A stretch of DNA of 64,000 nucleotides, taken from contig JADMJJ010000018.1 of assembly GCA_018780645.1 (NCBI GenBank), forward strand, positions 62,001 to 126,000, in the 5' to 3' direction. How positions within the stretch are numbered: the stretch's first letter is position 1; each line of letters begins with the position of its first letter. A program made the translations under genes and the position numbers. This document shows positions 1,777 through 62,256 of this stretch, one piece after another. Below the pieces are notes generated by a model. The model had not been told where the DNA came from. It made no database searches and worked only from the letters and a program-made list of their open reading frames with translations. The DNA is from Burkholderiaceae bacterium. Lineage in GTDB: Bacteria; Pseudomonadota; Gammaproteobacteria; Burkholderiales; Burkholderiaceae_C.

Positions 1777-5064
<3,288 letters not shown>

Positions 5065-5163
5065 GGGCTTCTTTCGGTGGCTGGCCCGCAGCATAGGTGG
5101 CGTGCCGGCCTCCAGGGCACCGCACAAACCCCGGCATCGTGCAGCAGCGTGCGCTGTGCGCGC

Positions 5164-6066
5164 TCAGCTGCCCACGGCTTGTCGTTGCAGATGATCGACC
5201 AGCAGCCGGGCCGTGGCCGTCAGCTCCTCGACCGAGCGCATGCAGATCACGAATCGGCGCCGCGCCCAGGCGTCCTGCAGCGGCAGCACGGCCAGGCCCA
5301 GCGCCTGGGCATAGGGCTCGGTGGCCTCGCGGGGCAGCACGGCCACGCCTAGCCGGGCGGCGACGATGCGGCAGGCGGCGTCCAGGGTCGAGACCTGGAT
5401 GCGGCTGACCCACTGCCGGCCGGCCATCGCCGCGTAGCGGCGCAACATCGTCTCCATGATGCTGCCGGGCACGACGCCCACCGTGTCATGGTCCAGCGCG
5501 TCGATGAAGGCGATGCTCTCGCGGCGCGCGAGCGGATGCTCGGCATGGGTCAGCAGGCACAGCTGGTCGGCGCGGTAGGGCAGCGTCTGCAGGCCCTGCA
5601 TATCGCCGGCGTCCCACAGCACGCCGAAGTCGGCCGAGCCCTCGCGCACGCTGCGCACGATCTCGGAGCTGACCCGCTCCTCCAGGCTGATGCGCACCGC
5701 CTGGTACTGGCTTAAGAAACCGGCCAGGTCATCGGGCAGGAACTCAGATAGCACCGAGATGCTGGCCAGCACCCGCACGCTGCCATGCACGCCGCTGGCG
5801 AACTCGCTCAACTCGGCGCGCAGCCGGCTCATGCCTGACAGCATCGCCCGCGCCTGGCGCAACAGCGCCTCGCCGGCCGCAGTGGGCGCAATGCCGCGCC
5901 GGCCACGCACCAGCAGGGGCACGGCCAGATCGGCCTCCAGCGCCGCAATGCGCTTGCTGATGGCCGAGGCGACGATGGCCTCGCGCTGGGCGGCACGGGC
6001 GATATTGCCCTCCTCGCAGACGGCAACGAACAGCCTCAGCGTGATGGGGTCGAAGGCGGCGCTCAT
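5164..6066 (-). CDS. LysR-family transcriptional regulator
   Basis: A protein of 300 residues, the usual LysR length. The winged HTH is at residues about 5-65: ITLRLFVAVCEEGNIARAA, SAISKRIAALEADLAVPLLVR and PTAAGEALL match the family signature. The remainder is a periplasmic-binding-protein-like effector domain (HGSVRVLASISVLSEFLP starts it). The gene is divergent from the HMG-CoA-lyase-like gene at 6174, with a T-N11-A palindrome in the 107-base gap. The natural reading is control of the downstream lyase/CoA-transferase/receptor genes in response to a pathway metabolite; that link is inferred from position. Confidence 0.94.
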   Translation of the reverse strand: MSAAFDPITLRLFVAVCEEGNIARAAQREAIVASAISKRIAALEADLAVPLLVRGRRGIAPTAAGEALLRQARAMLSGMSRLRAELSEFASGVHGSVRVLASISVLSEFLPDDLAGFLSQYQAVRISLEERVSSEIVRSVREGSADFGVLWDAGDMQGLQTLPYRADQLCLLTHAEHPLARRESIAFIDALDHDTVGVVPGSIMETMLRRYAAMAGRQWVSRIQVSTLDAACRIVAARLGVAVLPREATEPYAQALGLAVLPLQDAWARRRFVICMRSVEELTATARLLVDHLQRQAVGS

Positions 6067-6080
6067 GGGTCATTGTGACA

Positions 6081-6106
6081 TTCCGACCCGGAACGCTGAC
6101 AGTTCC
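6081..6106. promoter_or_regulatory. Candidate LysR-type operator
   Basis: TTCCG-acc-CGGAA (6081-6093) is a perfect palindrome that also fits the LysR T-N11-A rule. It partly overlaps a second inverted repeat, GGAAC-gctgaca-GTTCC (6090-6106). Both lie between the divergent lysR gene and the lyase gene. Confidence 0.55.
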
Positions 6107-6173
6107 AAAATACCGCTGGCGCGGCCGATGGGAATGGCTGAACATCACTCATCCCCCGCTTCTGCCCTGCCCC

Positions 6174-7106
6174 ATGTCCACCCTTCCCCCCGCTGTCATC
6201 GTGCGAGAAGTCGGTCTGCGCGACGGCTTGCAAAGCATCGCCACCGTGCTGCCCACCGAGCGCAAGCTGGAGTGGCTGCGGCGCGCCCACGCCGCCGGCC
6301 AGCGCGAGATCGAGGTCGGCTCCTTTGTGCCCGCCCGCCTCTTGCCGCAGCTGGCCGACACCGGCGAGGTGCTGGCCTATGCCCAGACCCTGCCCGGCCT
6401 GATGGCCTCGGTGCTGGTGCCCAACTTGAAAGGCGCCGAGCATGCGATCGCCGCCGGTGCCGCGCTGATGGTCGTGCCGCTGTCGGCCAGCCATGCGCAC
6501 AGCCTGGCCAATCTGCGCAAGACGCCGGACGAGGTGGTGGCAGAGGTCGCAAAGATGCGCGCGCTTCGCGATTCCTCAGGCGCAAAGACGATCATCGAAG
6601 GCGGCGTCGGCACCGCCTTTGGCTGCACCTTGCAGGGCCAGGTCTCCACTGCCGAGGTGCTGCGCCTGATGCAGGCCCTGCTGGATGCCGGCGCCGACCG
6701 CGTCAGCCTGGCCGACACGGTGGGCTATGCCGACCCGGCGATGGTCGATGATCTGTTCGGCCAGGCCCTGAAGATTGCCGGCGAGCGACTGGCCTGCGGC
6801 CACTTCCACGACACGCGCGGCCTCGCGCTAGCCAACTGCTATGCCGCGCTGCGCCTGGGCGTGGGTCGTTTCGACGCCTCGCTGGCCGGCATCGGCGGCT
6901 GCCCCCATGCGCCCGGCGCCAGCGGCAACGCGGCCACCGAGGATCTGCTGTTCATGCTGCAGAGCATGGGCGTGCAGACGGGCGTCGATCTGCCGGCGCT
7001 GCTGGCGTTGCGCGCCGATGTCGCCGACTGGATGAGCGGCGAGACGCTGCACGGCACGTTGTGGCGCGCCGGCCTGCCCAAGACCTTTGTTCAGCACGCA
7101 TCATGA
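6174..7106 (+). CDS. Hydroxymethylglutaryl-CoA lyase-like enzyme (HMGL family)
   Basis: This 310-residue protein belongs to the HMGL-like TIM-barrel family. VREVGLRDGLQS (residues about 8-20) carries the Arg-Asp metal and substrate residues, and HFHDTRGLALAN supplies the His ligands. GGCPHAPGASGNAATEDLL is the C-terminal active-site signature with the catalytic Cys. Enzymes of this family cleave 3-hydroxy-3-methylglutaryl-CoA or related substrates such as citramalyl-CoA to acetyl-CoA plus a keto acid. The ATG at 6174 gives the normal N-terminus; no strong Shine-Dalgarno is seen. The stop overlaps the start of the CoA-transferase gene (ATGA). The neighbouring CoA transferase probably makes the CoA thioester that this enzyme cleaves, so the substrate may be a free branched hydroxy acid (inference). 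Confidence 0.88.
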   Translation: MSTLPPAVIVREVGLRDGLQSIATVLPTERKLEWLRRAHAAGQREIEVGSFVPARLLPQLADTGEVLAYAQTLPGLMASVLVPNLKGAEHAIAAGAALMVVPLSASHAHSLANLRKTPDEVVAEVAKMRALRDSSGAKTIIEGGVGTAFGCTLQGQVSTAEVLRLMQALLDAGADRVSLADTVGYADPAMVDDLFGQALKIAGERLACGHFHDTRGLALANCYAALRLGVGRFDASLAGIGGCPHAPGASGNAATEDLLFMLQSMGVQTGVDLPALLALRADVADWMSGETLHGTLWRAGLPKTFVQHAS

Positions 7107-8290: not shown

Positions 8291-9274
8291 ATGACCATGA
8301 TCCAGATACATCGCCGCCTCATCACGCTGCTGGCCACCAGCCTGCTTTGCGCCACCCCGCCCCTCTGGGCCCAGACCACCGACAGACCGCTGCGCATCAT
8401 CCTGCCGGTCGGCGCGGGGTCGGGTGTCGACACCATCGTCCGCGCCGTCGGCCCGGCCCTGTCCAAGGCGCTGGGCGGCCAGCCGGTGGTGATCGAGAAC
8501 CTGCCCGGCGCAGGCGGCATCACCGGCACGGCGGCCCTGGTCAAGTCCGCACCCGACGGGCTGACGATAGGCGTGGTCTCGAACAACCACGTCATCAACC
8601 CCAGCGTCTACAAGAAGATTCCGTTCGATTCGATCGAGGACATCACCGCGATCTCGGTGATAGGCAGCACGCCCATGGTCCTGGTCGCCAATCCGGCCAA
8701 GGTGCCGGCGAAGAACGTCAAGGAGTTGATCGCCTTCCTGAAGGCCAGGCCCGATGCCTACAACTATGCCTCGTCGGGCAACGGCACCATCCTGCATCTG
8801 GCGGCCGAGATGTTCGTCGACGAAGCCGGCGTGGTGATACGCCACATTCCCTACAAGGGCTCGGGCCCGATGATTGCCGATCTGATCGGCGGCCAGGTCG
8901 AGCTGGGCGTGCTCGCCCTGCCCGCCATCCAGGGCCACCTGAAGAGCGGCGCGCTTCGCGCCATCGGCGTCGGCGGCCAGAGCCGCTCGGCAGCCGCGCC
9001 GGAGATTCCGACCATCGCCGAGCAGGGCCTGCCCAACTACGACGCCAGCGGCTGGTTCGCCGTGATCGCCCCCGCCAAGCTGCCCGCCGCCGAAGTGAAG
9101 CGCCTGCATGCAGCCTTCACCGCCGCCTTTGCCACACCCGAGGTCAAGGAGGCGATGGCCCGCCAGGGCAATGACATCCACCCCAGCACACCGGAGGCGG
9201 CCGCGCGCTTCTTCCGCAGCGAGACCGAGCGCTATGCCAAGCTGGTGAAGAAGTCGGATATCAAGGTGGACTGA
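8291..9274 (+). CDS. Bug-type tripartite tricarboxylate transporter substrate-binding protein
   Basis: A 327-residue periplasmic receptor of the TctC/Bug family. The signal peptide is about residues 1-28 (LITLLATSLLCATPPLWAQ). Mature-protein landmarks are RPLRIILPVGAGSGVDTIVR, VIENLPGAGGITGTAALVKS and IAPAKLPAAEVKRLHAAF. These receptors usually bind carboxylates through two bridging waters in a deep cleft. GGAG just before 8291 supports the first ATG; a second ATG lies two codons on. No TctA/TctB membrane genes are nearby, which is common for the large Bug families of Burkholderiales. Its place after the CoA transferase suggests it binds the acid fed into that pathway. The gene ends seven bases before the convergent TelA-like gene. 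Confidence 0.92.
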   Translation: MTMIQIHRRLITLLATSLLCATPPLWAQTTDRPLRIILPVGAGSGVDTIVRAVGPALSKALGGQPVVIENLPGAGGITGTAALVKSAPDGLTIGVVSNNHVINPSVYKKIPFDSIEDITAISVIGSTPMVLVANPAKVPAKNVKELIAFLKARPDAYNYASSGNGTILHLAAEMFVDEAGVVIRHIPYKGSGPMIADLIGGQVELGVLALPAIQGHLKSGALRAIGVGGQSRSAAAPEIPTIAEQGLPNYDASGWFAVIAPAKLPAAEVKRLHAAFTAAFATPEVKEAMARQGNDIHPSTPEAAARFFRSETERYAKLVKKSDIKVD

Positions 9275-9280
9275 CCCGCC

Positions 9281-10489
9281 TTACAGCTTCACCGGCCCCG
9301 CCACATCCCCCGCGCTGCCCACGGCCTCCCGCGCCCGCTGCTGGCGCACCCGGTCCACATGCGTGTCGGCGCGGGCCAACTGCTCGCGCAGCATCAGATT
9401 GTTCTGGCCCATCACATCGATCGCCTTGGCGCGGAAGTTGTCCATCGCATCCATGGCCTGGAAGGTCTGGTCGAACATCTCCTTCATCTTGTCAATGCCG
9501 AGCATCGGGTTCTGCGCGAACTGGGTGGTCTGGTCCACATGCTGGTTCAGTGCGCGGCCGGTCTCGCTGATCAGGTTGCCTATGGTCTCGTTGACGCCCG
9601 ACAGCATCTCCATCACGCGGATCTGGTTTCCGGTGGCGCGGGCCACCGTCTGCGCCACGGCCAGCGCACTCATGCCGGTGGTGGCCACGCGGGTGCAGCC
9701 GTTGATCATCTCGCGGCCGGTCTTCTTCAGCACATCCAGCGCCAGATAGCCGTTCACACACACCGCCTGCTGGGTCTGCACATCGAGCAGGTTCTGGCGC
9801 GCATAGAACAGCACCTCCTGCTTCAGCGCATGGGCGCGCTGCGGGTCGGTGGCTTCCAGCGACTGCACCTTGGCGGCGAGTTGCGTGTCCAGGGTCGTGG
9901 CAAAGCGTGCCGCGGCGGCTAGCTTCTGCATCGCGTCCCACAGCTTGGCGCGGGTGGCCTCGATGTCGATCACGTCCTTCTGCATGTCATCGCGGGCGGC
10001 GTAGAGCTGGCCCATCGAGGTCTTCAGCTGCTCGGCCGCGCTCTGGTATTTGCGGAAATAGGCTTCCAGCTTGTTGCCAAACGGGATCAGGCCCAGCAGC
10101 TTGCGCGGTTGCATCAGGTCGCCCTCCTTGCCGGGGTTCAGCTCGTCGAGCTGGGCGCGGATGCTGGAGATCGCCTTGTAGGCCGAGCTGTCCTCGATGC
10201 CGTCGAAATTGCGCTGCATGAAGCGGCTCTGCATCAGGTCGGAGGCACCGGCAATCTCCTCCTTGCCCAAGGCAAAGGCGCTGTCCAGCCGCGCGCGGAA
10301 GGCATCGGACTGCACATCTTCGCTCGCCAGCGCGTCGATGAAGCGCAGCACCTGGGCGTCCACCTGCTGCTGCAGCTCCGGCTTCAGCGGCACGGCTTCG
10401 CGCGCCGCCTCCACGGCCACCGGCGTCAGCACCTCGGGGGGCTGCAGCTGGAAGATGGCTGCGGGCGTGGTGGTGGTGGGGCTGTTCAT
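9281..10489 (-). CDS. TelA-like (toxic anion resistance family) protein
   Basis: This 402-residue, almost wholly alpha-helical cytoplasmic protein matches the TelA/KlaA family. Characteristic stretches are LLGLIPFGNKLEAYFRKY, RARLDSAFALGKEEI, FARQ-like helices and TRVATTGMSALAVAQTVA. No membrane segment or signal peptide is present. TelA relatives were named for tellurite resistance on plasmid RK2, but chromosomal members occur in general stress or envelope modules and the biochemical activity is not established. It is the last gene of a four-gene operon, and its start overlaps the previous stop (10486-10489, ATGA). No terB/C/D/E genes are present, so calling it a tellurite determinant would be over-reading. 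Confidence 0.88.
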   Translation of the reverse strand: MNSPTTTTPAAIFQLQPPEVLTPVAVEAAREAVPLKPELQQQVDAQVLRFIDALASEDVQSDAFRARLDSAFALGKEEIAGASDLMQSRFMQRNFDGIEDSSAYKAISSIRAQLDELNPGKEGDLMQPRKLLGLIPFGNKLEAYFRKYQSAAEQLKTSMGQLYAARDDMQKDVIDIEATRAKLWDAMQKLAAAARFATTLDTQLAAKVQSLEATDPQRAHALKQEVLFYARQNLLDVQTQQAVCVNGYLALDVLKKTGREMINGCTRVATTGMSALAVAQTVARATGNQIRVMEMLSGVNETIGNLISETGRALNQHVDQTTQFAQNPMLGIDKMKEMFDQTFQAMDAMDNFRAKAIDVMGQNNLMLREQLARADTHVDRVRQQRAREAVGSAGDVAGPVKL

Positions 10490-11178
10490 GATGTGGGCTC
10501 CTTGTCGGCGAGATTGAGCGCAGGGGCATCCGGGCCTTTGGGCCCGAACTTCTGATTCAGAAACTTGGAGTGCACCAGGAAGGCATGGGCGTCCTGGGCG
10601 GACAGATCGTCGCCGAGCTGGCGCAGCTTGGCGTCGAGCTCGTCCAGCGTGTCGGTGAAGGTGGCCTGGGCGGTCTTGCCGTTGTCCAGGACCTTGGTCG
10701 TGGCAAAGGCGGCCGGTATGGCGAGATAGGTGTTCAGCGCGTCGGGCAGATAGCTGATGGCGATATGGCGCGCATGAAAGCTGTCCTGCAGCGACAGGCT
10801 GCCGCGCGAGCGCTCCCACTGCTGCAGCAGCGCTTCGAGTGCCTCGCACAGCTCCAGCACGCGCCTTTGCAGCGCCAGCGGAATGCGTTTGTCGGGGTTG
10901 TACTCGGTCAGCTGGCGCACGCCCTTCAGCGCCCGCTCCATCGCCTCGCGGGCATCGCCCTCGTCGCTGAACTCCAGCGCCGCCCACTCGGGCTCGCGCG
11001 CCCAGGGCCAGCCCAACCACAGGCCACCGATCACAAAGCCGGCCAGATAGCCCAGACCGGCCATGGGCAGGGCCAGGCTGCCCAAGAGGCCCAGGGCCTT
11101 CAGAACCAGCATGCCGCTGGCCAGCGCCAGGCCACACCAGTTGGCCGGGGAAGCCAGGAGGCGAAACAGCGCCGTCAT
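10486..11178 (-). CDS. XpaC-like two-helix membrane protein
   Basis: A 230-residue protein. The first 60 residues have two hydrophobic helices (about 16-33 and 37-56), after which the chain is cytoplasmic and helical. The core around residues 125-215 (SFHARHIAISYLPDALNTYLA, a D-G-K-T-A motif, then DELDAKLRQLGDD and FLVHSKFLNQKF) resembles XpaC, the 5-bromo-4-chloroindolyl-phosphate-hydrolysis family. Despite that name, no hydrolase active site is evident. XpaC proteins are repeatedly found next to TelA, as here. Both ends overlap neighbours by four bases (ATGA at 11175-11178 and 10486-10489), which implies co-translation with the VWA and TelA proteins. It probably anchors the TelA-like protein to the membrane (inference). 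Confidence 0.75.
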   Translation of the reverse strand: MTALFRLLASPANWCGLALASGMLVLKALGLLGSLALPMAGLGYLAGFVIGGLWLGWPWAREPEWAALEFSDEGDAREAMERALKGVRQLTEYNPDKRIPLALQRRVLELCEALEALLQQWERSRGSLSLQDSFHARHIAISYLPDALNTYLAIPAAFATTKVLDNGKTAQATFTDTLDELDAKLRQLGDDLSAQDAHAFLVHSKFLNQKFGPKGPDAPALNLADKEPTS

Positions 11179-12845
11179 TGATAGGCCCGGATGTCCTTGA
11201 ACACCGTGTACAGCGGCGTGCTGCGCGCGTCGAACACCCGGCCGCCGGTGACCTTGACCAGCGCCTTCAGGTCGGCCTCGTTGGCCTCGCCGAACAGCAC
11301 CATGAACACCGGAATCGCGCGCACGTCCTCGGGCAGGGCCGCATAGTCGCGTTTGAAGGCCTCCAGATTGCGTCCCTGGTTGTTCTCGCCATCGGTAAAG
11401 GCCACCACCGAATACTGATAGCCGGGAGACTTCTCGCGCTCGGCCAGCATGTGTTGTAGCGACTCGAACACGGCGTCGTACAGCGCCGTGCCGCCCTTCA
11501 TGCGCAGGCGCTCGGCCTTGTCGCGCACCTCGGCGAGCACGGCCTGCTTGGCCTCGCTGTCGGCCTGCTCCTGCACGCCCTTGGCGCCTGCCTTGCCGGC
11601 GGGCAGCTCGAAGCGCACCAGGCCGTAGGGGTTCTCGGCAAAGGGCTGCAGCCACAGGCGCTCGCGATTCGTCAGCTTGGCAATGCGCCCGGTCAGCGAG
11701 GCGTCGGCCCCGGCGATGTAGTGCAGCGCCTGCACCAGCTGATCGCGACGGCCGCCGCCGGCCATGCTGCCGCTGGTGTCGAGCACAAAGGTGCTGGCAA
11801 TCGGCGTGCGGAACTCGTTCAGATAGGCGGCAATCAGGCCATCGGCCAGCGCTCGGTCGGGCGAGAACGGCAGCTCCACCTGCAAGCCCTGGCGCGGCAG
11901 CAGCTCCTCGACCTTGGCCGCGATATCCTGCTTGATCGGCCGACGCAAGGTCTGGCGCGCCAGCCACAGCTGGGCCGCATCGCTCTTCAGATAGTCCACC
12001 ACCTTGAGGTAGTCGGCGCGCCTGGCCTCGTCGAGCAGCATGAAGGGATAGTCGGCCGTGCTGACGCCCTCGAACGGATAGATCAGGGTTAGCTTCTCGC
12101 GCAGCTTGCCCGAGGCATTCAGGCTCAGGAGCCAGCTCTCGTAGTTGATGAAGGCGTTGACCCGTGTGCCCTGCTGCAGGATGAACTGCTCGGACAGATA
12201 GGTCGAGTTGTCACCGGGCAGCTTGTAGCCCTTGAGGAAGTCGGCGATGGCGCCACGGTCCACATCGGCCGCGCTCAGCGCCTCGGCCTTGCCGCCGGCC
12301 GAGGCCACCACGCCCATCAAGGCCATGAAGCCCTGGTTGGATGTGGCCGGGTTGGACAGCGCATAGCGCAGCTTGCCGGCACGCGCGGCTGCAGCGATAT
12401 CGCTCCAGGTCAGCTTGGCGCCGGGTTGGTCCCAGCCGTTCTTCTTCGCATCGCTCTCGCTGACGCCGACCGCGATCGGCGACAGCATGATCTTCTCCTG
12501 CAGCTTGACCCGGCCCTGCCCCTGCGGGCTGGACAGCAGGTACTTGGCATTGGCGAACCAGGCGGCGTCGGCCTTGGCCTCGCCGTTGAGCACCGCCTCG
12601 GTGCTTTCCATCGTGCCGCCGAACTTGAAGCGCAGATTGACGCCGGTGGCCTTCTTCACCATCTCCTCCAGCGGCTGCACATCGCGCAAGTCGCTGGTGG
12701 CCAACACCTTGAATTCGGTCTCAGGCGCGGCCGGAGCTGACACCGCTGCGGGTGCAGCAACAGGCGCTTCGCTGCGGCCCACCTTCTTGACCACCACATA
12801 GGCCAGGGCCAGTGCCGCCACGCCCATCCACCACTTGAACTTCAT
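11175..12845 (-). CDS. Membrane-anchored solute-binding domain fused to a VWA domain
   Basis: The 556-residue protein starts with a single N-terminal membrane helix (WWMGVAALALAYVVVKK). Residues about 45-310 form a type-2 periplasmic-binding fold: FKVLATSDLRDVQPLEEM, FKFGGTMESTEAVLNGEA and RYALSNPATSNQGFMALMG. A von Willebrand A domain follows from about residue 345, where the MIDAS motif DTSGSMAG (near 353) with later TALYDAVF and VAFTDGENN is intact. A metal-dependent protein-protein contact is therefore likely. The binding part looks like an ABC-type sulfate or molybdate receptor, but no permease or ATPase is present. It overlaps both neighbours by four bases. The fusion suggests that ligand capture outside the membrane is passed to a partner through VWA binding (inference). 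Confidence 0.85.
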   Translation of the reverse strand: MKFKWWMGVAALALAYVVVKKVGRSEAPVAAPAAVSAPAAPETEFKVLATSDLRDVQPLEEMVKKATGVNLRFKFGGTMESTEAVLNGEAKADAAWFANAKYLLSSPQGQGRVKLQEKIMLSPIAVGVSESDAKKNGWDQPGAKLTWSDIAAAARAGKLRYALSNPATSNQGFMALMGVVASAGGKAEALSAADVDRGAIADFLKGYKLPGDNSTYLSEQFILQQGTRVNAFINYESWLLSLNASGKLREKLTLIYPFEGVSTADYPFMLLDEARRADYLKVVDYLKSDAAQLWLARQTLRRPIKQDIAAKVEELLPRQGLQVELPFSPDRALADGLIAAYLNEFRTPIASTFVLDTSGSMAGGGRRDQLVQALHYIAGADASLTGRIAKLTNRERLWLQPFAENPYGLVRFELPAGKAGAKGVQEQADSEAKQAVLAEVRDKAERLRMKGGTALYDAVFESLQHMLAEREKSPGYQYSVVAFTDGENNQGRNLEAFKRDYAALPEDVRAIPVFMVLFGEANEADLKALVKVTGGRVFDARSTPLYTVFKDIRAYQ

Positions 12846-13972
12846 TGCGCCATCTCCCTGGCCACCACGTCGATCATCTCCGCCATCAGCTCGAACGAGG
12901 GCGGGTCCACCACCTGGCTCAGCCGCGGCTCGACGGCCAGGCCGGTGGGCTGCAGCGCGGCCATGAAGCGCTGGGTGTCGGCAATGCGAAAGCCGTATTC
13001 GACCGCGATGGACTGCAGCTCGGCGTCATTGGCCAGCAGCTCGCCCAGCGCCTTGGCCCGCTCGTTCAGCGACACGAACACCACCTTGTTGACGATGGTC
13101 GGCTGCGGGTAGAGCAGCACCATGTCGGCGCTGACGCCCTTCTTGGCCATGGCGTGGCTGACCAGCTGGTTCTCGTAGATGAAGGCCATCGGCGCCTTGC
13201 CCATGCCTATGGCCACATAGTCGTCGAAGTTGCCATTGACGTAGTTCTCCTGATAGCCCTGGCGCTTGAACAGCTCGGCCAGCTTCAGGGCCGTCTGCTG
13301 GGCGGTGGCGCGGTCGGTGACCACATCGCCCAGCAGCGCGTGGCTGGTCAGCGCCAGGTACATGGCGCCCGAGTTGCTGCGGCGCAAGTCGGTGGTGGAG
13401 ACCAGCACGCTGCGCGTGACCTCGTAGGCGGAGGCCTCCTTCAGGTCCTTCCACTTCTTCTTGGCCAGCATCAGCTCGGTCAGCCTGGCCATGTCCAGGC
13501 CATAGACCTTGGGCGAGATCGGCTTGGCCAGGCCGTTGGCGACCAGAATCTTGGCAATCGGCTCCCAGGAGGCGATGACCATGGGCGTGTGGAAGGGCGA
13601 GACCTGGGCGGCGTTGAGATTGGCCTTGCGCGCCGCGTCGACCACCTGATTGGCCGCCACCACGCCGGACGGGAACAGAAAGTCCTGCTCGGCGCTGACC
13701 TTGGCCGCCATATCGCGGCTGCCGACCCGCTGCACCGCCACCGGCAGGCGCTTGGCGGCCAGCCGCTTGATGACGCGCTCGTCCTTGAAGTAGGCCTCGA
13801 CGTCGAGCGCGATCAAGCCCTTCAGCACCACCGTGGAGGCGAGCTGCGCCTGCTCCTGCTGCGCCGTCTGCTCTTCCTTCTGGCCGCGCAGCGCGAAGAA
13901 CAGGCTGCCGCCAAAGCCCGCGGTCAGCGCAAGCGTGATCAGTGCCCGCTTCGTCTTCGACAGTCCCGCCAT
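12842..13972 (-). CDS. Membrane-anchored periplasmic solute-binding protein, first gene of the VWA/TelA operon
   Basis: This 376-residue protein has an N-terminal membrane helix at residues 8-25 (ALITLALTAGFGGSLFFAL), then a predicted periplasmic alpha/beta fold. Segments such as DFLFPSGVVAANQVVDAA, HTPMVIASWEPIAKILVANG and AFIYENQLVSHAMAKK resemble type-2 substrate-binding proteins and the receptor half of the next gene. I chose the ATG at 13972 because a purine-rich Shine-Dalgarno (AGGGGCGAGG) precedes it; an upstream TTG at 14008 lacks one. It overlaps the following VWA gene by four bases. No cognate transporter is encoded. Two receptor domains in one operon suggest ligand sensing or a complex, rather than import (inference). 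Confidence 0.8.
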   Translation of the reverse strand: MAGLSKTKRALITLALTAGFGGSLFFALRGQKEEQTAQQEQAQLASTVVLKGLIALDVEAYFKDERVIKRLAAKRLPVAVQRVGSRDMAAKVSAEQDFLFPSGVVAANQVVDAARKANLNAAQVSPFHTPMVIASWEPIAKILVANGLAKPISPKVYGLDMARLTELMLAKKKWKDLKEASAYEVTRSVLVSTTDLRRSNSGAMYLALTSHALLGDVVTDRATAQQTALKLAELFKRQGYQENYVNGNFDDYVAIGMGKAPMAFIYENQLVSHAMAKKGVSADMVLLYPQPTIVNKVVFVSLNERAKALGELLANDAELQSIAVEYGFRIADTQRFMAALQPTGLAVEPRLSQVVDPPSFELMAEMIDVVAREMAQ

Positions 13973-14043
13973 GCCTCGCCCCTTTTGTTCTGTATTCGCA
14001 CCGCTCAACTTGCGCGCAAATATAGACGCAAAAGGCGATGGTG

Positions 14044-15248
<1,205 letters not shown>

Positions 15249-15252
<4 letters not shown>

Positions 15253-17633
15253 TCCCTCGTCTTCAAGGCGGCCACCATGTCGAGCCGGTCGATGCGCCGG
15301 CGCACCACCAGCGCGCTGGCCACACCGGCCACCACCACGCACAGCGCCGCGCCCACATAGGTGCGGGCCCGTATCACCACCGGAAAAAAGAACTGGTCGG
15401 ACTTCAGGAGCTCGGTGATGCCATGGGTGAGCAACAGGCCCAGCAGCATGCCCAGCGGCAGCGCCACGGCGATGACGATGGCCAGCTCGCCCAGCAGCAG
15501 GCCCGAGACCTCGGCCCGTGTGAAGCCCAGCACGCGCAGGCTGGCCAGTTCCCAGGCCCGCTCGGACAGCGCGATGCGCGCATTGTTGTAGACCACGCCG
15601 ACGGCGATGACGCTGGCAAAAACGGTCAGGATGGTGCTCATGATGCGCACATTGCGCGCACTGATCTCCTCCATATTGCGCAGCATCGTCGCCTTGCTCC
15701 AGGCCCCGGCCACGCGGGGCATGGCCTTGCTGGCCTCCAGCACCCGAGCCTCGCCTCCGGGCTGCACGGCGACCACATAGCCGGTCGTCACATCGCCGTC
15801 GCCCAGGGCAAGGTTCAGCGCCTCGCGGTCCATATAGGCGTTCAGGCCCATCATCTCGCGCACGGTGGCGCCGACGGGCAGGGTCAGGGTGCGCGCGCGG
15901 CCCTCCATCACCTCGATCTGCACCGGGTCGCCGACGCGCAGGCCCAGCTTGTCGGCCAGGCGGTCGGTGAGCACCAGGCCGCGGCCATCGAGCAGGGTCT
16001 CGCGCCGGTCCACGTCTATCACCCGGTAGAGCTCGGGCCGCCCGGCATAGCCACGGATCATGCTGCGCTCGCGGCGGTGGCCATTGACGAAGGTGACCGA
16101 GACGAAGCGCGTGGCCTCGACGCTGTTGACACCGGGCAGCCGGCCCAGTTCGTGGCGCACGCTGTCGTCCACCGGCTCGGCCGTCCATAGCGTGACGTCG
16201 CCGCGCAGGCCCAGGGTCAGCTGTGTGTCCAGCACTACGTCCATCGCGTCTCGGATGTAGTTGCCCATGATGACGATGGCCAGCGCCGCGGCCACGCCGC
16301 CGATGGACAGTACCGTGCGCAAGGGCCGGCGCTCCATATTGCGAAGAATCATGCGCAGGGCAGGCGCCATGCGCTGGATGCCCAGGCGCTCCAGCAGCGT
16401 GCGGCGGTAGTTGCCCGGCGAGGGCGGACGCATGGCCTCGGCCGGCGGCAGGCGCACCGTGGCCAGGATCGCGTTCATCGTGCCGCCCACGGCGGTGAGC
16501 ACGGTGACTCCGGCGCTGAGCACCAGCAGCCAGGGCGCGATGCGGTGCTCCAGGCTGGGGAAGTGGAAGAACTCGGCATACAAAAGGGCCAGTTGCGCGC
16601 CGAGGAGATCCCCCACCAGCAGCCCCAGCCCCAGACCCAGCGCCACGATCAGCAGCACCAGCTTCAGGTAGTGCCCGGCGATGGTGGCGTTCGGATAGCC
16701 CAGCGCCTTCAGCGCGGCGATCTGCTCGCGCTGGGTGGACACCAATCGCGCCACCACCACGTTCAGCAGGAAGGCGGCCACGGCCAGAAAGATCGCCGGC
16801 AAAACCGTGCCCAGCACCCGCTGTTCCTTGATTTCGTTGTCCAGCATCGCGTGCGAGGTCTGCTCGTCGCGGCCATGGGCCTCGCGCCCGCCATAGGGCG
16901 AGAGCAGGCGCGCCACGCCGTCGATCGCAGCCCGCTCGGAGGCCCCCGGCGCCAGCTTGATGGCGGCCCGGTTGAAGGCCCCCTCCATGTCATAGGCAGC
17001 GGCCAGCGCCGCCCTATCGACCCAGAACACGCCGAAACCGCGCGCATCAGGCATGCCCCATAGACCCGCAAAGATGAACTCGGGCGACAGCGCAGTGCCG
17101 GCGACGATCAGCCCGCGCTGCTTGCCGTTGATCAGCGCATTCAGCCGCGCGCCGGGCTTGAGCTTGTGCGCTTGGGCGAAGGCCTCGGAGACCAGCACCT
17201 CCAGCAAGCCGTCGGAGCGCGCCGCCGCGCCGCCTTCTTCACCGCTGGTCAGTGCGCGGCCACTGCTCACAGTGACCAGGTTCATGCGCGCCGGCGCGCG
17301 CCAGTCCACGCCGATCAGCTGGCCGATGATGGGATCGGCCAGGCCGGGCAGCTCGACGCGCACGACCTGCTCCAGCGTCGTCTGCACGTCGGCCACGCCG
17401 GGCACGGCGCGCAGCTGCTCGGTCAGCGCCAGCGGCGCCCGCTTGAGGCCGGCGAACACATCGGCAAAGCGGCCGCTGGCATAGAAGCGGTCACGTGCCA
17501 GCGCCAGCGAATCGACCGCCGACAGGCTGGTGATGAAGCCGCCGATGCCACTGGCCACGACCAGGGCAATCGTCAGCGCCTGGCTCCACATGCGGCGCAG
17601 ATCGCGCAGCAGCTTGCGGTCAAGGGCTTTCAT
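15249..17633 (-). CDS. ABC transporter permease, FtsX/MacB family (duplicated)
   Basis: This 794-residue permease has two FtsX-type units. An N-terminal membrane helix near 15-40 is followed by a large periplasmic domain, then three helices around 275-385 (VLPAIFLAVAAFLLNVVVA, LLIVALGLGLGLLVGDLLG). A second anchor sits near 440 with a further periplasmic domain, and the closing helices are at about 665-785 (ILTVFASVIAVGVVYNNA, LAIVIAVALPLGMLLGLLL). This layout matches lolCDE/macB-like mechanotransmission exporters of the DUF214 class rather than importers. The ATPase gene precedes it by six bases and the adaptor overlaps its end, so the three form one exporter. The substrate could be a lipid, lipoprotein or peptide; the sequence does not say. 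Confidence 0.92.
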
Positions 17634-17639
17634 GCGACA

Positions 17640-18377
17640 TCACCATGTCAGTTCTGAGGGCTCCAGCTTGTGCGCATTCGTCTCGATGCGCAGGATCTTG
17701 CCGTCGCCGAGATAGACGACACGATCGGCCATACCGGCGATCGCCGCGTTGTGGGTGATGACCACGGCGGTCGTGCCTATCTCCTTGTTGATGCGCGCGA
17801 TCACCTCCAGCACCAGCTTGCCGGTCTGGTAGTCCAGCGCGCCGGTGGGTTCGTCGCACAGCAGCACCTCGGGCCGCTTGACGATGGCCCGCGCAATCGC
17901 CACACGCTGCTGCTCGCCGCCGGACAGCTGGGCCGGAAAATGGTCGCGCCGCGGCGTCAGGCCGACCCGGTCTATGGCCTCGTCGACCGACATCGGGTGC
18001 TCGACGATATCGGTCACCAGCGCGATGTTCTCGCGCACCGTCAGGCTCGGTATCAGGTTGTAGAACTGGAACACGAAGCCCACATGCTCGCGCCGGTAGC
18101 GGGTCAGCTGCGCCTCGGTGGCGGCGCTCAGGTCATGGTCGGCGAACATCACCTGGCCGCTGCTTGGCACGTCCAGACCGCCAAGGATGTTCAGCAGCGT
18201 GGACTTGCCGCTGCCCGAGGGGCCCAGCAGCACGATGAACTCGCCGCGTGCGATGTCCAGGTCCACCCCGCTGAGCGCCTTCACCACGACCTCGCCCGTG
18301 CCATAGGTCTTGCTCAGACCACGGGCTCGGAACACAGGCTCGGCGGCCTTGGTCGACGTATCACTCAAGGCCGGCAC
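17640..18377 (-). CDS. ABC transporter ATP-binding protein (MacB/LolD-like)
   Basis: A 245-residue ATPase with all motifs: Walker [10 protein letters not shown] near residue 50, signature [14 protein letters not shown] near 145, Walker [13 protein letters not shown] near 170, and an H-loop histidine in [11 protein letters not shown]. The closest architecture is the LolD/MacB N-terminal ATPase that pairs with FtsX-type permeases. The start used is a GTG at 18377, which makes the gene overlap the end of cbpM by 17 bases; a TTG three codons further in is an alternative. The overlap implies co-expression of the exporter with the CbpA/CbpM chaperone pair. Confidence 0.93.
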
Positions 18378-59484: not shown

Positions 59485-62256
59485 TCAGCTGCGCTGCATC
59501 GTCGCCCGCAGCGCCTCGGTCAGCTGACCCAGGCTGTCGGCCAGATGGGCGCGGCTTTCGACCGACAGGCCGCCCTTGGCCACGGCAGAGCGCAGCTGGC
59601 TCTGCAGCTCGGTGGCATGCAGGCGGGCCAAGCTCAGCGCGTCGGGCGGCAGACTGGCCGGTGCGCGGGTCAGCACCGCCTGCAGGCGCTTCAGGTGCTC
59701 GCGCTGCAGATTGCGGCGCAGCCGCTCGATCTCGGCGCCGGATTTCAGTTCGGCCCAGATCGAACCCTGCAGGGTGCCGTAGACCTCGCTCAATGAGATC
59801 AGGCCCTTGCGTTGGGCCGGGGCCACATAGCCGGGCAGGTCCAGCAGCCGGCGCGCGGTGTTGGGATTGAGCAGGCGGTCCAGCGCAACGATCTGCACGC
59901 GCGCCACGGCGGCAGGCACGTCCAGGGGGCCGCCCCGGTCCCATTCGTTGTAGTCCACCGTCAGGCCCGACAGGAACTCCGGGCGGAAGCGGAAGCTGGT
60001 CTCGCTGAACAATCCGCCGGCCAGGAACTGCAAGGCCTCGCGCTGCTTCGCCGGCTCGACCGGCTTGAAGCTGGCGCGGCCGGTGGAACCGGGCAGGTCG
60101 CGCAAGGCATGCATGCCGCCCACATACTTGCCCACCAGTTCGGCGGCACGGAACAGCTGGTTGAAGCCGCCCAGGAGCGCGCGGCGCTGGCGCAGCGGGT
60201 CGTCGGTGGCCAAAGGCTTGCGGTCCTGCACCCGCTCCCACAACTCCTGCGACAGCTTCAGACGCTTCTTGAAGTAGGCCAGCGGGTCATCGCCCAGATC
60301 GAAGCGGTTCGCCAGTGGATCCATGCCATCGTAGGGGCCGAAGCCGCCGGCATCGGCATCATCGCCAAAGGCCAGTGCCGGCTCGGTGCTGCGCGAGGCG
60401 ATCCGGCCCAGCTCGGCCACCTCGACGGACGGCTCCAGCGGCTTGTACGCGTACTCGATCGCCCAGTAGTCGTAGGGGCCCAGCGTGGTCGAGTTGTAGT
60501 TGCCCTGCACCTCGCCCTTCAGCGCCAGGTTGTAGGCGTTGTAGTCCATCACCGAGCCGGAGATGCCACTCGCATCGGTGAAGGCCTTGTCCTGCAGCTG
60601 CTTTTGCGTGATGGTGGTGCTGGCCTTGAAGTTGTGCTTCAGGCCCAGCGTGTGGCCCACCTCATGCATGATGGTGTCCTTGATCACCGCCTGCACAAAG
60701 GCCTCGGCCTCGGGACCATCGGGTGCGATGTCGCCACGGGCTTCGAGCACATCGAGCGCGAAGTCCATCTCGGCGGCGGCTTCCTTGGCGTAGCTGCAGG
60801 CCGCCGCGCCCTGGCCATCGCGCCAGCCGGCCGTCATCTGCGCCAGGCGCTGCTCGCTGCTCATGCCGACGTCCTCGACCAGGAAGCGGCGCGAGCCGCG
60901 CGCGAACACATCGCTCATGCCGATGTCGGCATCGAGGATTTCGCCGCTGCGCGGATCGGTGTGGCTGGGGCCGATGGCAAAGCCGACGTCGGCGCCGACG
61001 AACCAGCGAATCGACGCATGGCCCGCATCCATATTGTCCCAGTCGGCATCGTCGGCCTGCTGCCTGGCGACCACGGCGTTCTTGAAGCCGATCTTCTCGA
61101 AGGCCTTGTTCCATTCCACGATGCCGGCCTCGACCGACGCGCGATAGCGCACCGGGATGTTCTTGTCCATCCAGTAGGTGATGGGCGTCACCGGCTCGGA
61201 CAGGGCCGCCGCCGGATCCTTCTTCTCAAGGCGCCAGCGCTGCACATAGTGCACGCGGGGATTGGCCTTCAAGTCGCCACCCAGGTCGGTGAAGGACTCG
61301 GCGAAATGTCCCAGGCGCGGGTCGACCTTGCGCACCGCCATCGGTGTTTCGGGCAACTGCGCGAAGTTGTAGACGTAGCTGACGAACAGGCTGCGCGGGT
61401 CCGGCGTGGCCTGCGGCGGTGTGGGCTGGGGCACCGGGCTGGGCGAAGGCACCAGTGGCGGCGCCGGAATGCGCGGCGTGGCGAAGTGCACCCGCGCGGC
61501 CAGGGTGCTCAGACGCTCGTCGGCACGGGCCGTCTCGATGAAGGAATTGCTGCGGTCAAGGCCGTAGGGCAGACGGTAGGCCATCTCCAAGCGGGTCGAG
61601 TAGCCGGGGATGTCACTGAGCAGAAAGGCAGCGTCGATCAGCACCGACTTGCGCTCGGGATGCTCGGCACTGGCCACCGGGCCGGCGCCCAGCAGACTGG
61701 GCGAGAAGGCCTGGTCGATGGCACGCTTGGAGCCCTGGTCGGCGACGGCACGGAACTTGGTGTTCAGCGCCATCAGCTGCAGCTGGTTGCCGATCTTGCG
61801 GAACTCGGCCATATGGTCGGTGCCCATCTGGCTGGCATAGAGGCCGCGCTCGCCGATCGAGTTGGCGATGTTGACTGTGAACAGGAAGGGCTTGTTCAGC
61901 TGTGCCTTCGGAATCTCGATCCAGATCTTTTCGTCCTTGCGCCAGATCGGGAACAGGCCCTGCTGCACCTTGGCGTCCTTGATCACATCGGCAAAGGGTT
62001 TCGGAGCAGTCGGATCGGCCGGGGGGCGCGGGGCGCCGGGGGCCGCACCGGAGGCAGCACCCGCCGGTGGCGCAGCACCCTTGGCCATCGGCGTGAAGCT
62101 GTTCGCCGCCGTGGGGGCCGACGCGCCTGGGGCCGCCGCCTTGGCCGCGTCGCCTTCCTTGACCGCCGGTGCGGCACAGCCGTACAGCAGCGTCACGGCA
62201 GCAGTCAACAGCGACAGGTTCAGGGGATTCGAAGAAACAGCAGATTTCACGCTCAT
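59485..62256 (-). CDS. Secreted zinc-dependent metalloprotease (DUF5117/DUF5118 type lipoprotein)
   Basis: A 923-residue protein. The signal sequence ends in a lipobox-like LLYGC near residue 27, then a Pro/Ala-rich linker (about 35-85). The body has the family features FADVIKDAKVQQGLFPIWRK and PVTPITYWMDKNIP. The zinc motif HEVGHTLGLKH lies near residue 535, preceded by IKDTIM, and SVMDYNAYN is the Met-turn-like segment after it. A helical C-terminal region follows. Relatives resemble astacin/metzincin-like proteases with DUF5117 and DUF5118. Substrate unknown. The ATG at 62256 gives the lipoprotein signal; its leader carries a terminator-like hairpin. Confidence 0.88.
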   Translation of the reverse strand: MSVKSAVSSNPLNLSLLTAAVTLLYGCAAPAVKEGDAAKAAAPGASAPTAANSFTPMAKGAAPPAGAASGAAPGAPRPPADPTAPKPFADVIKDAKVQQGLFPIWRKDEKIWIEIPKAQLNKPFLFTVNIANSIGERGLYASQMGTDHMAEFRKIGNQLQLMALNTKFRAVADQGSKRAIDQAFSPSLLGAGPVASAEHPERKSVLIDAAFLLSDIPGYSTRLEMAYRLPYGLDRSNSFIETARADERLSTLAARVHFATPRIPAPPLVPSPSPVPQPTPPQATPDPRSLFVSYVYNFAQLPETPMAVRKVDPRLGHFAESFTDLGGDLKANPRVHYVQRWRLEKKDPAAALSEPVTPITYWMDKNIPVRYRASVEAGIVEWNKAFEKIGFKNAVVARQQADDADWDNMDAGHASIRWFVGADVGFAIGPSHTDPRSGEILDADIGMSDVFARGSRRFLVEDVGMSSEQRLAQMTAGWRDGQGAAACSYAKEAAAEMDFALDVLEARGDIAPDGPEAEAFVQAVIKDTIMHEVGHTLGLKHNFKASTTITQKQLQDKAFTDASGISGSVMDYNAYNLALKGEVQGNYNSTTLGPYDYWAIEYAYKPLEPSVEVAELGRIASRSTEPALAFGDDADAGGFGPYDGMDPLANRFDLGDDPLAYFKKRLKLSQELWERVQDRKPLATDDPLRQRRALLGGFNQLFRAAELVGKYVGGMHALRDLPGSTGRASFKPVEPAKQREALQFLAGGLFSETSFRFRPEFLSGLTVDYNEWDRGGPLDVPAAVARVQIVALDRLLNPNTARRLLDLPGYVAPAQRKGLISLSEVYGTLQGSIWAELKSGAEIERLRRNLQREHLKRLQAVLTRAPASLPPDALSLARLHATELQSQLRSAVAKGGLSVESRAHLADSLGQLTEALRATMQRS

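Follow-up and report, generated by a model that had tools for sequence, protein, structure and literature searches.

A four-gene operon encoding TelA, an XpaC-type protein and two predicted periplasmic receptors, one of them fused to a VWA domain

The operon described here lies on contig JADMJJ010000018.1 of a Burkholderiaceae bacterium (assembly GCA_018780645.1), within a stretch of 64,000 nucleotides (positions 62,001 to 126,000) that is called the window below. Four minus-strand genes, here named A to D, stand in the order A-B-C-D and span window positions 13972 down to 9281; all four open reading frames were confirmed. Gene A (12842-13972, 376 amino acids) encodes one N-terminal hydrophobic segment and a domain of the substrate-binding protein (SBP) type that is related to the one in B. 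Gene B (11175-12845, 556 amino acids) encodes an N-terminal anchor, an SBP domain and a VWA domain, and gene C (10486-11178, 230 amino acids) an N-terminal hydrophobic stretch of hairpin length followed by a helical C-terminal domain. Gene D (9281-10489, 402 amino acids) encodes TelA (PF05816). An ATGA overlap is found at each of the three junctions (A/B, B/C and C/D), as an earlier reading of the sequence alone (the sequence-only reading) had described. Such overlaps are common in bacterial operons, and so they suggest co-translation but do not imply the stoichiometric complex that had been deduced from them.

The product of D belongs to the TelA family, as had been proposed, because it matches PF05816 far above the cut-off (193.4 bits, 7.1e-57; cut-off 30). 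Its predicted structure consists mostly of long helices (pLDDT 64). When this model was searched with Foldseek, a designed three-helix bundle and ClyA-like long-helix proteins came first and were rejected as sharing a helix shape and not kinship; TM scores reached at most 0.39 among the best 50 matches. The TelA profile had no meaningful match in the PDB, and when the window proteins were compared with NCBIfam and PADLOC models, TelA drew only weak coiled-coil-like matches. In a simple hydropathy window, the method used (in place of a topology program) for all topology given here, D has no hydrophobic stretch above threshold, and TelA is taken to be cytoplasmic.

The product of B joins an SBP domain (residues 40-346; 11808-12728, minus strand), recognized by its predicted fold and by SBP_bac_11 in relatives, to a VWA domain (residues 347-556; 11178-11807, minus strand), recognized by VWA models in relatives and again by predicted fold. 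Window B itself scores just under the Pfam VWA cut-off (23.7 bits against 23.8); VWA models match 23 of 23 B relatives at E values up to 0.1, and SBP_bac_11 is matched by 13 of the 23. In an AlphaFold2 model of B (pLDDT 84.6), residues 41-347 align with the sulfate-binding protein 1sbp (Z 23.1, 279 residues, 4.0 A), and Z values are 21.7-22.2 for other sulfate binders and roughly 20-22 for ferric binders. The first Foldseek row is 6lkg, an SBP whose title gives it a role in two-component signal transduction. Residues 345-553 of the model align with the VWA domain of inter-alpha-inhibitor heavy chain 1 (6fpy, Z 21.7, 178 residues, 2.1 A; Z 21.7-21.8 for 6fpy and 6fpz), and this predicted fold settles the VWA identity of the C-terminal half despite the sub-threshold Pfam score. 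A profile search of the PDB with the SBP half alone ranked pentatricopeptide repeats first, which were discarded as repeat artefacts, and returned molybdate binders weakly (0.0035-0.006); an NCBIfam/PADLOC match to B was dismissed as chance.

The VWA domain had been said to carry an intact metal-ion-dependent adhesion site (MIDAS), and this is borne out by its conservation: D356, S358 and S360 (in DTSGSM), T453 and D485 are identical in all 45 aligned B proteins (window B plus 44 of 59 complete B-type rows). Residues S169, N170, N234, Y235 and E236 of the SBP domain are likewise invariant in 45 of 45, and such constancy of cleft-type residues suggests ligand binding.

Window A has no Pfam match, and SBP_bac_11 is matched by 3 of 18 A-family members. 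The A-family profile aligns with the B family over its SBP half (hhalign, 98.1%, E 1.2e-13), and with that half alone at 95.3%, arguing that A and B carry paralogous SBP-type receptor domains. A Tyr-Glu pair is kept in 18 of 18 A-family rows and an SNS motif in most; at the aligned places B has NYE and SNQG. The A-family profile found no meaningful match in the PDB. The earlier proposal of two SBP folds is thus upheld, for B by the match of its model to 1sbp and for A by profile.

Window A has a single hydrophobic stretch at about residues 10-29. Window B begins with a short hydrophobic N-terminus, and no hydrophobic stretch above threshold lies between its SBP and VWA domains. Residue 22 of B is a lipobox-type cysteine in 43 of the 45 aligned proteins, the other two having Val (window B) and His (locus L065). 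B is normally most likely a lipoprotein with SBP and VWA both on the outer side, wholly periplasmic, and window B probably has a plain N-terminal anchor in place of the lipobox. Because of the lipobox-type cysteine, and since no membrane segment separates the two domains, the VWA should face the periplasm, contrary to the idea in the sequence-only reading that a signal passes inward through it. By hydropathy, only the segment of A and the hydrophobic region of C look able to cross the membrane, and these are possible links to TelA.

Window C has a hydrophobic region at about residues 14-55, long enough for a hairpin, and no meaningful match to any Pfam family. The XpaC model PF10112 matches none of 25 C-family members at E values up to 0.1 and was found in none of 60 related genomes; its absence from the relatives carries little weight, because among 14 control genomes the model was found only in Lactococcus lactis and missed Bacillus subtilis. 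When compared by hhalign with a seven-row XpaC-type alignment, the C family aligns at 92.9% (E 3.6e-7) over 121 columns of the helical C-terminal domain, with a control at 0.35%; in this reference L135, L142 and L148 pass the PF10112 cut-off or score 94 bits, L151 falls just short of it, and the remaining three rows were chosen by position or resemblance. At L135, a distant copy of the four-gene set, a clear PF10112 protein (94.2 bits) lies between B and A, in the place of C. C-family genes also adjoin TelA without A and B at L143 (2.9e-17) and L152 (9.5e-13). The XpaC-like label previously given to C finds support in the profile-profile comparison and in L135 but not in Pfam, and the most fitting description of C is a diverged TelA partner of the XpaC type. 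The C-family profile had no meaningful match in the PDB. A second, diverged C-like gene follows C at L049 (10464-11117), L068 (10463-11104) and L057 (3301-3927); at L049 and L068 it sits between C and a reversed TelA gene.

Sixty-one related loci were found, mostly in Burkholderiales, with some in other Proteobacteria such as Candidatus Contendobacter. Gene order was counted in the 43 loci that are flanked on each side by 6.5 kb or more. All four genes are present in 35 of them, as A-B-C-D on one strand (25 loci), as A-D-B-C (2) or with D reversed beside A-B-C (8); the other 8 have A-B-C without D in range. The genomes of these 8 contain TelA elsewhere in 6 cases, and none was found in 2 (Rhizobacter, L032 and L034); two further genomes were searched for TelA, which is present for L057 and was not found for L046. 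The overlap of C and D is exactly 4 nucleotides in 22 of 35 adjacent same-strand pairs, with start codons picked by our own rule. The four genes had been taken for a dedicated set, and they are indeed usually together; because the set is kept across genomes, the grouping is more than chance.

B is present in 11 of 60 relatives, and these 11 are also the ones in which TelA passes its cut-off (one more genome, the twelfth, matches TelA below threshold). In a sample of 299 genomes from the phylum, B occurs in 7 and TelA above cut-off in 45, including all 7, and TelA lies beside B in each of them. The chance of this co-occurrence is 3e-12 for the 60 relatives and 1e-6 for the 299 genomes if the genomes are treated as independent, which they are not. 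Among the 7, the window genome and L133-L136 hold A, B and D together, in changed orders. In the latter four, C is recognized by profile in L136 and weakly in L133, through its Pfam match in L135, and by reading in L134; in the remaining two of the 7, TelA is next to B by coordinates. The full set also occurs in the actinomycete Nonomuraea, in the order A-D-B-C, and a plasmid of Deinococcus taeanensis carries A-B-C; TelA was searched for on that plasmid and not found. The pairwise protein distances of A, B, C and D correlate with one another at 0.83-0.92 (excluding L055, L064 and L065), which fits inheritance as a unit, with a contribution from shared genome ancestry. L055 has a second, unusual B-like reading frame (4871-6718) upstream of A. 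At L133, an EipB-like protein gene (9112-9948; PF08904, 1.8e-87), of an envelope-integrity family, precedes TelA on the same strand.

The earlier statement that no transporter is present holds for the four genes but not for their surroundings, since an HlyD/FtsX-permease/ABC-ATPase set in a MacAB-like arrangement (about 14044-18377, minus strand) lies roughly 70 bp upstream of A on the same strand. Homologues of its HlyD and FtsX proteins were found in just one of 47 loci with enough upstream sequence, that of a sister species (L013). ATPase relatives occur in 14 of the 47; outside L013 they are 27-41% identical, 0.6-7 kb away and mostly on the other strand, and the one at L051 shares the strand of the set and lies 604 bp away. 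As far as was looked at, then, the set is not usually found beside ABC permease and ATPase genes: no permease or ATPase is among the four genes and the FtsX homologue recurs once in 47, other permease families not having been scanned. When open reading frames within 4 kb of the set at 43 loci (antisense included) were clustered by single linkage, no flanking family appeared in more than 14 loci. The largest cluster, with those 14, is ABC-ATPase-like; its member at L064, which starts right behind C in the same orientation, presumably resembles the translation factor EttA. Most other clusters recur within one group of close relatives (L027, L029, L030, L037, L039, L060, L062 and L070).

Upstream of A, a weak candidate promoter element (14010-14033, minus strand) with the core TTTGCGTCTATATTT was read by eye. 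The core is common to the window, L013, L019 and L044, or 4 of 56 upstream regions compared by eye without motif statistics, and L019 and L044 have it but no upstream HlyD homologue. A sigma-70 promoter scan gave no match, and terminator-like sites numbered 1 against 2.5 expected. On the opposite strand, the gene for a TctC-type tripartite-transporter receptor (8291-9274, plus strand; PF03401, 3.2e-74) has its end 6 bp away from that of D.

A small operon that places TelA next to a membrane protein of the XpaC type is also seen in the XpaC-TelA/YaaN pairs of Bacillota (xpaC-yaaN of B. subtilis, lmo1966-1967 of Listeria and llmg_1115-telA1 of L. lactis), which are under envelope-stress control. 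The xpaC-yaaN pair is sigma-W dependent (PMC3498285), and an XpaC-like gene and telA1 of L. lactis appear in a transcriptome table from a study of membrane-protein overproduction (PMC3139573). A Listeria lmo1967 mutant is sensitive to nisin and tellurite, as cited in PMC12791056, and the lactococcal orf53-telA-telB-telC locus is linked to tellurite (PMC13109727); both papers describe the protective mechanism of TelA and XpaC as unknown. The window operon differs from the Bacillota pairs in that C is too diverged for PF10112 and in the addition of two periplasmic SBP proteins, one with a VWA domain. Ter systems (TerB, TerC, TerD, TerF and TerY with TelA) likewise bring TelA together with a VWA protein, and PMC7824862 proposes that TelA and the TerF vWA protein form sub-membrane structures and that Ter and TelA genes block phage entry. 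In the window, by contrast, the VWA domain is on a predicted periplasmic, SBP-fused protein, and no TerD (PF02342) was found in the genome, TerB and TerC not having been searched; 2 of the 60 relatives have TerD, one of which (G010) is among the 11 genomes with B. A Curtobacterium plasmid (L080, 4190-9933) carries TelA together with DUF475, three TerD genes, a DNA methyltransferase and a C-like gene; this last is a weak case, because the iterated search that gave it may already have contained it.

The architecture of B already has a name at NCBI, where a "substrate-binding and VWA domain-containing protein" of Variovorax stands beside a "toxic anion resistance protein"; SBP-VWA is a name only in that record, and A and C are each a "hypothetical protein". 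Wadjet-type genes (L077, 11493-15446) lie about 2.4 kb beyond a Variovorax plasmid copy of the set. In the kilA-telA-telB (kla) operon of IncP plasmids, likewise small, TelA is accompanied by membrane proteins; no kla gene is listed in the stretch of plasmid R751 that was examined. No description of the four-gene set was found in the open-access literature, judged by title and the start of the abstract, a coverage outside which a 2012 comparative-genomics study of Ter-dependent stress systems falls, and a paper on the evolution of the phage shock protein (PSP) system (PMC11237479) does not mention TelA, XpaC or vWA. XpaC-TelA pairs, Ter systems and, by its NCBI name, the SBP-VWA architecture are already known; two paralogous SBPs, one of them an SBP-VWA fusion, as partners of TelA and XpaC are apparently new within the literature searched.

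The gene set, the folds, the MIDAS, the co-inheritance and the lack of a conserved transporter among those tested, taken with the envelope-stress link of XpaC-TelA pairs elsewhere, lead us to a tentative reading, the likeliest of those considered though still slightly less likely than not: the operon would be the TelA-XpaC envelope-protection module in a form that faces the periplasm, A and B making up its receptor half. A and B would be non-transporting periplasmic receptors of one SBP family, and the ligand in their clefts may be a small anion, an anionic envelope compound or a toxic compound. Ligand binding, together with metal-dependent docking through the VWA domain and MIDAS of B, would alter the A-B assembly, and the transmembrane segment of A and the XpaC-type C could pass the change to TelA. 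TelA, long, helical and lying beneath the inner membrane, would then stiffen or remodel the membrane against oxyanions, membrane-active peptides and similar stress. We infer in this way the class of ligand, the A-B and B-C contacts, the direction of the signal and the protective output. The 6lkg protein is a precedent for an SBP used as a sensor: by its title, its class II SBP fold serves in signal transduction, as proposed here, but no two-component kinase is among the four window genes, in which a VWA domain is fused instead.

Several observations weigh against a receptor module of this kind. Similarity of SBP folds does not identify the ligand; against the model of B, sulfate binders and ferric binders reach similar scores. 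Window B, with Val22 (codon at 12780-12782), lacks the lipobox cysteine. The co-occurrence of B and TelA is inflated by the relatedness of the genomes, and 38 of the 45 TelA genomes in the phylum sample are without B, arguing that TelA has other settings. Conversely, A-B-C occurs without detected TelA in two Rhizobacter genomes and on the Deinococcus plasmid; the receptor part and TelA are separable. Finally, the TelA proteins of L064 and L065 are only 22-25% identical to window D while A and B are 52-56% identical, indicating that TelA can be exchanged and arguing against a tightly fitted interface between B and TelA.

An alternative is that A, B, C and TelA form a structural tether or scaffold across the envelope, linking the periplasm to a sub-membrane scaffold, with the SBP folds as protein-binding modules and not ligand sensors. 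The TelA locus at L147 (4018-10892, all on one strand) encodes one protein that matches OmpA weakly, one with a VWA domain, one that combines OmpA with a phosphonate-binding match below threshold, one that no Pfam family matches, TelA, and an SBP of the NMT1 type, so that TelA can have its SBP and VWA parts on separate chains. The SBP-OmpA protein there, of the peptidoglycan-binding type, suits a tether, as do the normal lipoprotein character of B and the sub-membrane structures proposed for TelA and the TerF vWA protein (PMC7824862). However, L147 is one genome, and the invariant cleft-type residues suggest ligand binding, which leaves the tether an unlikely alternative. The similarity of B to sulfate- and ferric-type folds hints at an anion as ligand; alternatively, the SBP folds may serve to bind proteins. 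Periplasmic scavenging, in which A and B trap toxic oxyanions or metal complexes outside the cytoplasm and C and TelA are a separate protective pair, would account for the ranking of a sulfate binder first and of sulfate and ferric binders next, and the TelA family name and the lactococcal data (PMC13109727) do concern tellurite. Scavenging is nonetheless improbable, needing neither a VWA domain with a conserved MIDAS nor a fixed link to C and TelA. Still less credible is an anti-phage or anti-plasmid device of the kind suggested for Ter systems: the proposal on phage entry (PMC7824862) and the plasmid copy near Wadjet-type genes point that way, but PADLOC models gave TelA only the weak coiled-coil-like matches mentioned above, and a single neighboring defense system makes no pattern. 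A role as helper of the upstream HlyD-FtsX-ATPase exporter is largely refuted and very improbable, its close same-strand placement in the window and its presence at L013 being offset by the lack of HlyD and FtsX homologues at the other 46 loci.

If the receptor-module reading is right, the operon supplies TelA with a conserved periplasmic half that has recognizable ligand-binding and metal-site chemistry. A bolder version, which we consider rather doubtful, is a ligand-gated TelA machine, a receptor spanning the envelope: a pair of paralogous, non-transporting SBPs and a VWA domain with its MIDAS, docked on an XpaC-type membrane protein, would switch a sub-membrane TelA scaffold. Were that version true, a TelA system would have a known sensory input, and this in three phyla or more, and its periplasmic parts would be interchangeable, either an SBP-VWA protein or a separate VWA protein and SBP-OmpA protein. 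What the TelA system senses, and what contacts its XpaC protein, become testable questions with soluble proteins and deletions.

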